Below, in pieces: positions 3,540 to 5,923 of a DNA stretch of 64,000 nucleotides (positions within the stretch are counted from its first letter, which is position 1; each line of letters opens with the position of its first letter). The stretch covers positions 62,001 through 126,000 of the forward strand of contig JAKAKS010000022.1 in NCBI GenBank assembly GCA_021813405.1, in the 5' to 3' direction. The notes beneath the pieces are model-generated. The model saw nothing but the letters and a program-made list of their open reading frames with translations, ran no database searches and had not been told where the DNA came from. Origin of the DNA: Nitrospirota bacterium. GTDB taxonomy: Bacteria > Nitrospirota > Thermodesulfovibrionia > Thermodesulfovibrionales > JdFR-88. The translations under genes and the position numbers were made by a program.

Positions 3540-5270
3540 ATGGAACATATCGAATCCCCGGTTGCGGAATTTATGAAGTCCCCCAAGATCGCCTATTTCT
3601 CCATGGAGATAGGGATTTTAAACGACATGCACACTTACAGCGGCGGCCTTGGCGTGCTTGCCGGAGACACCATCCGCTCCGCAGCGGACCTGAAAATACC
3701 GCTTCTGGCCGTGACCCTGCTTTCCAAAAAAGGGTATTTCAGGCAGGCCATAGACCCTGCCGGCAATCAGTCCGAAGGGCCTGCGGATTGGGACCCGGCC
3801 AAATTCACGGAGCCGCTGCCTGAAAAAATCTACCTGGAGGTCGAAGGCAGGCAAGTGGCCGTAAAGGCCTGGCTTTTTGTCCAGAAGAGCATCACGGGCG
3901 GCAAAGTGCCAATCCTTTTCCTGGACACGGACCTGCCGGAGAACGCACAGACAGACAGGGAAATCACCTGGCACCTTTACGGAGGCGACGAACGCTACCG
4001 GCTGAAGCAGGAGATGGTGCTTGGAATGGGCGGGGTGAGAATATTAAGGAAGCTGGGGTTCGATATCCGCAAATACCACATGAATGAAGGGCACGCAAGC
4101 CTCCTTACGCTGGAGCTGCTTCTGGAGCACCAGCGGGACATAGAATCCGTATGGGACGAGGACCTGGTGTGGGACGTGGACAAGGTAAAAGAGATGTGCG
4201 TGTTTACCACACATACGCCCGTTGAGGCCGGGCACGACCGGTTTTCCTACGAGCTGGTAAAAGACGTGCTGGGCGAGATAATCCCGCTGCGTGTCCTTAA
4301 AAAACTGGCCGGCCAGGAAAAGCTGAACATGACCCACCTTGCCCTGAACCTTACGGAATACGTAAACGGGGTGGCCAAGAAGCACAAGGAAGTTTCCATG
4401 ATGATGTTTCCGGGGTACGAGTTTTCGTCAATTACAAACGGGGTGCATTCGTTTACCTGGACGCACAAGAACCTCCGCCTGCTCTATGACAAGCACCTGC
4501 CCGGCTGGGCAAACGAGCCGGAACTTTTCGTCCGGGTAGACAGGCTGCCCGAAGACGAGCTGTGGGCGGCGCACATGGCCTGCAAGCGGGAACTTATAGA
4601 TCTGGTGAACCGTAAAACCGGTTCCAGCATGAACTGCGATACCCTGACCATCGGGTTTGCCAGGCGGGCCACTGCCTACAAGCGGGGGACGCTTGTTTTC
4701 AGGGACCTGGAGCGCCTGGCGCGCATAGGCGCCGGAAAAATCCAGCTTGTGTTTGCGGGCAAGGCCCATCCCAAGGACACCCCCGGCAAGGCCGGCATAA
4801 AAAAGATATTCGATTGCATCGCCGGGCTGAAGGGCAAGGTAGAAGCGGCATATCTGCCCGATTACGATATGGAGCTGGCCCTGACGCTGGTATCCGGGGT
4901 GGATATATGGCTGAACACTCCGCGGCCGCCAAGGGAGGCCTCCGGCACCTCCGGGATGAAGGCGGCGCACAACGGCGTACCCAATTTCAGCATCCTGGAC
5001 GGCTGGTGGATAGAGGGCCACATAGAAGGGTATACCGGCTGGGCAATCGGCTCCGTTTATACGGAAGGCGCGGATGTTTCGGAAGAAGAGCGCGACGCCC
5101 AGGACGCGGAGGACCTGTACCGCAAGCTGGAAGAGATAATCATCCCCACCTATTACAACAACAGACATCTGTGGATACGGATTATGCAGAATGCCATAGG
5201 CAAGAACGCCTATTATTTCAATACCCACCGCATGATGCTGAGGTATGTAACCGAGGCATATATCCGGTAG
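3540..5270 (+). CDS. glgP: Alpha-glucan (glycogen/maltodextrin) phosphorylase, GT35 family
   Basis: Releases glucose-1-phosphate from alpha-1,4-glucans with phosphate, using pyridoxal phosphate; cytosolic. The N-terminus (IAYFSMEIGI, then HTYSGGLGVLAGD) is diagnostic for the alpha-glucan phosphorylase family, and the C-terminal EASGTSGMKAAHNG around residues 466-478 holds the lysine expected to bind PLP. At 576 residues it is the compact form, shorter than the roughly 800-residue glycogen phosphorylases. The ATG at 3540 gives an N-terminus of ordinary length. The selenoprotein candidate follows 50 bases downstream on the same strand. A lone CBM48 protein at 28551 suggests other glucan metabolism in this organism. 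Confidence 0.92.
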   Translation: MEHIESPVAEFMKSPKIAYFSMEIGILNDMHTYSGGLGVLAGDTIRSAADLKIPLLAVTLLSKKGYFRQAIDPAGNQSEGPADWDPAKFTEPLPEKIYLEVEGRQVAVKAWLFVQKSITGGKVPILFLDTDLPENAQTDREITWHLYGGDERYRLKQEMVLGMGGVRILRKLGFDIRKYHMNEGHASLLTLELLLEHQRDIESVWDEDLVWDVDKVKEMCVFTTHTPVEAGHDRFSYELVKDVLGEIIPLRVLKKLAGQEKLNMTHLALNLTEYVNGVAKKHKEVSMMMFPGYEFSSITNGVHSFTWTHKNLRLLYDKHLPGWANEPELFVRVDRLPEDELWAAHMACKRELIDLVNRKTGSSMNCDTLTIGFARRATAYKRGTLVFRDLERLARIGAGKIQLVFAGKAHPKDTPGKAGIKKIFDCIAGLKGKVEAAYLPDYDMELALTLVSGVDIWLNTPRPPREASGTSGMKAAHNGVPNFSILDGWWIEGHIEGYTGWAIGSVYTEGADVSEEERDAQDAEDLYRKLEEIIIPTYYNNRHLWIRIMQNAIGKNAYYFNTHRMMLRYVTEAYIR

Positions 5271-5320
5271 CACACAGGATAGTAACGGGATAACGGCAGC
5301 ACCGGAAAGGAGGAAGGAAC

Positions 5321-5923
5321 ATGGCACATATCAAGTGGGAGAGCGATCACTCAGAAGCGCTGGCCAGGGCGGCGCAAAGCGGCAAGCCTGTATACCACGA
5401 TTTCTGGTTTCAGGGCTGAGCGGGCTGCAACAGGATGAATACGGTTTCGTATTCAAACGAAGCAGTCCAGAATTTCATCATAAACGAGTTTGTGCCCCTC
5501 AAAATGGAGGTTTCTTTTACAAGGCCATATGAGCTGATGGAAAGGTACATGGTAAGGTGGACGCCAACGCTGCTGGTGGAGGACGCGGAAGGAAAGGTGC
5601 AGCACCAGATGGTGGGCTTTGTGCCGCCGGACGATCTTCTTGCGCATCTGAAGCTTGGCAAGGGCATGTTCTATTTCAATTCCGGCAAGCTGGAGGAAGC
5701 CGCCGGATGGTTCCGGCGTGTTTTTGAGGAGCATCCCAAATCAGGGCCCGCCCCGGAGGCGGTGTTTTATCTGGGTGTGGCCGGATACAGGCTCACCCAT
5801 AAGCCCTCACACCTGCGTACTGCCTACGATACGCTTTTGGCCGGCTACCCGGAGAGCGAATGGAGCAGGAGGGCCGTGGCTTACTCGGCCATCCCCAAGG
5901 AGGAACAGCCGGCCCACGCATGA
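5321..5923 (+). CDS. Thioredoxin-fold/TPR-like selenoprotein candidate with in-frame TGA (Sec33)
   Basis: The frame starts at ATG 5321 behind a strong AGGAGG-type ribosome site (5307-5312) and reads MAHIKWESDHSEALARAA...PVYHDFWFQG, then TGA at 5417-5419, then AGCNRMNTVSYSNEAV and on to the stop at 5923. Read as selenocysteine, the TGA gives a UxxC motif (Sec33, Cys36) exactly where thioredoxins carry CxxC, preceded by the expected hydrophobic strand and followed by the cis-Pro strand RWTPTLLVEDAEG. The C-terminal third (GMFYFNSGKLEEAAGWFRRVFEEHPKSGPAPEA) is TPR-like. A hairpin at 5436-5455 fits a bacterial SECIS. A shorter protein starting at ATG 5435 would lack a proper ribosome site and the first strand and active site. 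Total 200 residues with Sec. A sequencing error or a stop mutation at TGC/TGT is the alternative. Confidence 0.82.
5436..5455 (+). promoter_or_regulatory. SECIS-like hairpin
   Basis: Eight base pairs (TGAATACG with CGTATTCA) close a four-base GTTT loop. The loop begins 24 nt after the TGA and its first base is G. Both match the rules generally used for bacterial SECIS elements: apical loop about 16-37 nt from the UGA and a G among the first two loop bases. The hairpin lies within the coding frame, as expected in bacteria. Confidence 0.72.

Follow-up and report, generated by a model that had tools for sequence, protein, structure and literature searches.

A probable thioredoxin-fold selenoprotein with a TPR-like tail in Nitrospirota

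Results

A reading frame interrupted by one TGA

The window analyzed here is a 64,000-nucleotide stretch of the Nitrospirota contig JAKAKS010000022.1, and coordinates are counted from its first base. On its forward strand lies a frame of 200 residues that runs from ATG 5321 to a TGA stop at 5921-5923 (Table 1). The only in-frame stop ahead of that end is another TGA, at codon 33, and reading through it gives a product of the form MAHIKWES...YHDFWFQG-U-AGC-NRMN... An earlier note on this DNA had described the frame, its strong ribosome-binding site and the single TGA, all of which we confirm; almost all of the relatives inspected likewise have a GGAGG-like site ahead of the equivalent start. 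As that note had anticipated, the open reading frame listing contains only the 3' part of the gene, from which the active site is lost. Standard annotation that does not handle selenocysteine (Sec) would therefore truncate the protein and drop its catalytic residue.

The alpha-glucan phosphorylase-like gene immediately upstream is retained beside the TGA-containing gene only in a relative from the same genus. Because the gene neighborhood is conserved no further than the genus, we rejected an operon-based function in glycogen metabolism. Elsewhere in the window, positions 42-2270 hold a 742-aa frame with many repeated 'IDASGNVWV' units, which by eye resembles a beta-propeller of the NHL type.

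Table 1. Features at the locus, in window coordinates
Feature	Position	Strand	Remarks
Alpha-glucan phosphorylase-like gene	3540..5270	+	50 bases upstream of selenoprotein gene, same strand
Ribosome-binding site AGGAGG	5308..5313	+	7 bases 5' of ATG 5321
Predicted selenoprotein gene	5321..5923	+	200 residues; TGA 33 read as Sec; stop TGA 5921-5923
Thioredoxin-fold domain, residues 4-111	5330..5653	+	Pfam Thioredoxin_2, E 7.8e-13; structural model; Foldseek DsbD-gamma, TMt 0.75-0.79
In-frame TGA, predicted Sec33, attacking residue of U-A-G-C	5417..5419	+	TGA in 22 Sec genomes, TGC in 5 Cys orthologues
SECIS element (bSECIS type), within coding sequence	5420..5470	+	-22.9 kcal/mol, z -5.6
Cys36, predicted resolving residue of UxxC	5426..5428	+	Invariant in family alignment
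Truncated ORF from table-11 gene finding	5435..5923	+	162 aa; starts at Met39 inside SECIS region; lacks active site
Apical hairpin GAATAC-GGTTTC-GTATTC	5437..5454	+	24-sequence alignment
C-terminal TPR-like helices, residues 112-190	5654..5890	+	TPR_16/TPR_6 matches; structural model

The TGA codon is conserved and alternates with a cysteine codon

We surveyed 101 relatives and 396 genomes of the phylum, two sets that overlap. Full-length homologues that keep the TGA at this codon occur in 22 separately assembled Nitrospirota genomes, including that of the window, at protein identities ranging down to about 30%, and their motif is UxGC wherever it was read. About 5% of the Nitrospirota genomes sampled thus have a member of the family. 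In five other genomes, all from one other family (L071-L075), full-length copies carry TGC at this site (CTGC); one of them shares 31% identity with the window protein across 185 columns. The family therefore shows what is expected of a bacterial selenoprotein, a UGA that is conserved among some relatives and replaced by Cys in others, and it bears out the proposal in the earlier note that the TGA stands where the first Cys of a thioredoxin CxxC motif belongs and that relatives with Cys at position 33 should exist. The Cys-type motif given there, FFxPxCxGCxxMD, resembles that of the Sec relatives (F[FY]NPGUIGCQQMDA), whereas the true Cys relatives have FFHYxxCTGC.

Next to the window genome stands 'Nitrospirae bacterium DBS2-1.bin64', which belongs to the same genus and shares 92% protein identity. 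Comparison with the same-genus relative gave dN 0 and dS 0.36 over the 30 codons before the TGA, and dN 0.04 and dS 0.29 over the 157 codons after it, so that purifying selection acts on both flanks.

One genome (G084) carries, besides its Sec copy, a Cys-form paralogue with the motif CPVC (L052, G084:C10:29113-29664) that sits on a long branch of the family tree. The tree, rooted at its midpoint only, needs two changes between Cys and Sec. Searches for family relatives gave no match in phages and none in plasmids, where three weak thioredoxin-domain matches were the only ones; in a scan of genome contigs, the same-genus Nitrospirae MAG was the only match. The same superfamily has a branch of shorter selenoproteins in another family of the class (L076, L077 and L078; G340, G216, G268, G344 and G315). 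Its members are single-domain, thioredoxin-like Sec genes of about 120 aa, with a TGA (UDAC or UGAC where read) and a related hairpin.

A SECIS element follows the TGA

From the TGA onward, a 54-base segment has a predicted folding energy of -22.9 kcal/mol (z -5.6 against shuffles), and none of 2000 synonymous resamplings was as stable as the native fold. Across 24 aligned Sec genes, 95% of cells in the stem of the apical hairpin (5437-5442/5449-5454) are paired, compared with 88% in shuffles, and 14 cells are compensatory, a number reached by none of 500 shuffles. Two of its pairs show double changes, A-U to G-C and U-A to A-U, and the G at 5444, the second place in the loop, is invariant. 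Control hairpins slid along the alignment are only 23-60% paired. In three divergent members (L031-L033) the shared hairpin pairs badly, and a shifted one may take its place. A scan of raw fold energy along the gene makes a weak comparison, placing the element at rank 8 of 183 windows; the argument is carried by the synonymous null and the covariation.

In E. coli fdhF, the SECIS is a stem-loop directly after the UGA, with a small apical loop containing GG or GU. The element described here is alike in following the UGA directly and in its small GG/GU loop; it differs in having a stem sequence of its own, constrained by a different protein sequence. The bSECIS model requires a loop of 3-9 nt, an upper stem of 4-16 bp, a G in the first two loop positions, a distance of 16-37 nt from the UGA and a minimum free energy of -7.5 or lower (PMC13188914). 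All of these constraints are satisfied: the loop has 6 nt (4 if a G-C pair is closed), the stem 6-8 bp, G stands first and second, the spacing is 23-24 nt, and the energy lies well below the limit.

Selenocysteine machinery and other readings of the TGA

The genome that contains the window encodes a single tRNA-Sec, with anticodon tca (UCA), together with selA, selB and selD; the four genes that the earlier note had proposed looking for (selA, selB, selC and selD), and that a bacterial selenoprotein is expected to have in its genome, are therefore all present. Its selD (L018:1375-2610, G000:C4) is itself a selenoprotein gene, with a UGA at the classical Sec site (SCAGUAAK). Among the relatives, selA scored over the cut-off in 18 of the 22 TGA genomes (10/12 in one set and 8/10 in the other) and in none of the five Cys genomes (Fisher p 0.0016, uncorrected for shared ancestry, the Cys genomes being a single clade). 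Within a single phylum, then, whether the site holds Sec or Cys goes with whether selA is there, and the family offers a natural test of the contribution of Sec to a thioredoxin fold. Over-cut-off selB was found in 11 of 12 genomes tested; G073, G009 and G011 have it on the contig that carries the selenoprotein gene, no more than about 10 kb away. In the remaining four TGA genomes selA went undetected; G041 has tRNA-Sec with neither selA nor selB detected, and G068 has selB with no detected selA and no strong tRNA-Sec. We read these patchy absences as gaps in draft assemblies. The presence of tRNA-Sec does not separate genomes with the selenoprotein gene from those without it, because most of the order has this tRNA.

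These data also bear on other ways in which the TGA might be read. The UGA could specify an ordinary amino acid, either Trp or Cys, the latter inserted by a selC*-type tRNA-Cys with a UCA anticodon. The selC* tRNA-Cys has been reported from Nitrospirae, and the UCA anticodon occurs in some selC* tRNAs (PMC7609411); related genomes do contain tRNA-Cys genes of selC* length. The anticodon of those long genes, however, is GCA, and in the window genome every RF01852 match given with a locus is either the tRNA-Sec(UCA) itself or an ordinary tRNA for Ser, Leu, Tyr or Gly. Moreover, TGA ends 10 of the 36 long open frames in the window, implying that the codon is not reassigned genome-wide, and the Cys orthologues use TGC in genomes where selA was not found. 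We therefore consider this reading very improbable.

The two remaining alternatives have, in our judgment, a negligible chance of being right. A pseudogene or sequencing error, in which a TGC or TGT codon was mutated or misread as TGA, would take a single base change from TGC in a genome that is apparently a draft (56 contigs), but it is refuted by the conservation of the TGA across the 22 assemblies, and the selection on both flanks and the conserved SECIS hairpin also stand against it. The other alternative is that the locus makes two proteins, a 32-residue leader that stops at the UGA and a 162-residue product from Met39 with no redox function. Gene finders would call it in this way, and Met39 is conserved in many relatives; yet the 32 residues form the conserved beta-alpha-beta start of a thioredoxin (Trp6, Asp27, Phe28), in almost all inspected relatives it is the first ATG that has the ribosome site ahead of it, and ahead of 5435 there is none, that stretch being taken up by the SECIS.

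A thioredoxin fold with a helical tail

The best Pfam match of the protein is Thioredoxin_2 (PF13098), at 49.1 bits against a cut-off of 27, and with its predicted thioredoxin fold we place it in that family; Thioredoxin_7 and DsbH-like models match the same residues (4-111). Past residue 112 the window protein itself shows weak TPR matches. In the first alignment all 13 members match thioredoxin models, and TPR_16 and TPR_6 each match 8 of the 13 at E<0.01. Thr81-Pro82, at the usual place of the cis-Pro, is invariant or nearly so.

A structure predicted from the family alignment (pLDDT 94.4, pTM 0.90) has a thioredoxin fold in which residue 33 comes immediately ahead of a helix (34-43), followed by tail helices at 103-120, 124-137, 144-159, 163-175 and 180-190 with pLDDT about 98. 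Foldseek's top match over the whole chain was Salmonella/E. coli YbbN (CnoX), over about 190 columns, although the two chains superpose poorly (TMq 0.37, rmsd about 11 A); next came matches to the first domain, from DsbD-gamma, DsbH and thioredoxins. In sequence, the thioredoxin domain comes closest, among solved proteins, to a Bacteroides disulphide isomerase (2kuc) and to DsbD-gamma. Inspection of the N-terminus revealed no signal peptide, and there is no membrane segment; a cytosolic location is therefore likely.

Discussion

We conclude, with a probability of about 95%, that this is a true selenoprotein gene, whose product is a cytosolic thioredoxin fold with the active site Sec33-x-Gly-Cys36 and a short TPR-like tail, and that SelB and Sec-tRNA(UCA) decode UGA 33 through the stem-loop at 5420-5470. 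To judge from its sequence, the gene is built for Sec, and Sec is probably what is inserted at residue 33. The earlier note had reached the selenoprotein reading, which our results support; it had missed the SECIS hairpin, the TPR-like tail and the spread of the family through the phylum.

Thioredoxin-like selenoproteins with a UxxC motif are an established kind (PMC1794560, PMC9312934, PMC13188914). The nearest entry in the review tables is a predicted PF13098 UxxC selenoprotein, 'thiol:disulfide interchange protein', listed for the deltaproteobacteria Geobacter and Syntrophus (PMC1794560; PMC13188914 Table 1). It shares with the window protein the Pfam domain, the UxxC motif and a predicted redox role, but, in a comparison by description only, no tail is described for it and no Nitrospirota member is listed (PMC1794560; PMC13188914). 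These two reviews contain no mention of TPR, nor of a Nitrospirota selenoprotein of this kind. None of the NCBIfam selenoprotein families scored over its cut-off, the best being TsoB (44.5 bits against 805), followed by VPGUxxT type 2 (25.1 against 275) and Trx7/PDZ (12.3 against 300). The family thus appears to be an uncatalogued addition to the prokaryotic selenoproteome, the nearest candidate having been compared by description, and is perhaps a new subfamily of the known UxxC thioredoxin-like selenoproteins.

The thioredoxin domain has its closest solved relatives in the C-terminal domain of DsbD and in disulphide isomerases of the 2kuc type, from which it differs by Sec in place of the first Cys. 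DsbD-gamma, furthermore, forms the periplasmic portion of a membrane protein, whereas the window protein has neither a signal peptide nor a membrane segment. As a whole, the architecture recalls the chaperedoxin CnoX/YbbN (PDB 3qou, 3qdn), with an N-terminal thioredoxin domain, C-terminal TPR-type helices and a cytosolic location. E. coli CnoX joins a thioredoxin to a TPR domain, and the Caulobacter protein, which has a CxxC motif, is active as an oxidoreductase and also acts as a holdase (PMC8129009). The motif is S/CxxC in CnoX and UxxC here, and the tail of about 80 residues, with 4-5 helices, is much shorter than the two five-helix subdomains of CnoX (PMC8129009). YbbN is also absent from the best 60 of 202 sequence-profile matches. 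By analogy, CnoX offers the nearest functional model; because of the much shorter tail and the lack of a sequence match among the matches listed, we do not claim that the protein belongs to the CnoX group. Another chaperedoxin-like protein from the same phylum, Leptospirillum TFP2, was set aside because it has no TPR domain and carries a WCPGC motif.

What the protein does is a more evenly balanced question. There is roughly an even chance that it serves as a cytosolic selenol/thiol reductase of client proteins, whose tail selects or holds those clients as in CnoX-type proteins. In such a mechanism, the Sec selenolate would attack disulfides or oxidized thiols of cytosolic clients, Cys36 would resolve the mixed selenenyl-sulfide, and a cytosolic thioredoxin reductase system would recharge the enzyme. 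Recruitment of the clients would presumably fall to the TPR-like tail. A bolder proposal, which we consider rather unlikely, is that the protein is a selenium-based chaperedoxin of Nitrospirota, both holding oxidized clients and reducing them with its selenol; if true, this would join a CnoX-like architecture to selenocysteine chemistry.

Finally, the tRNA searches turned up long tRNA-Cys(GCA) genes in several genomes of the same order, scoring 55-64 bits as tRNA-Sec (L081:2550-2642 in G090:C35, L085-L088, L090 and L091). The one in G090 is followed on its own strand, after about 40 bases, by a second selB, in agreement with the selC*/selB* arrangement described by others, of which the tRNA has been reported from Nitrospirae and the second selB only from two deltaproteobacterial groups (PMC7609411).
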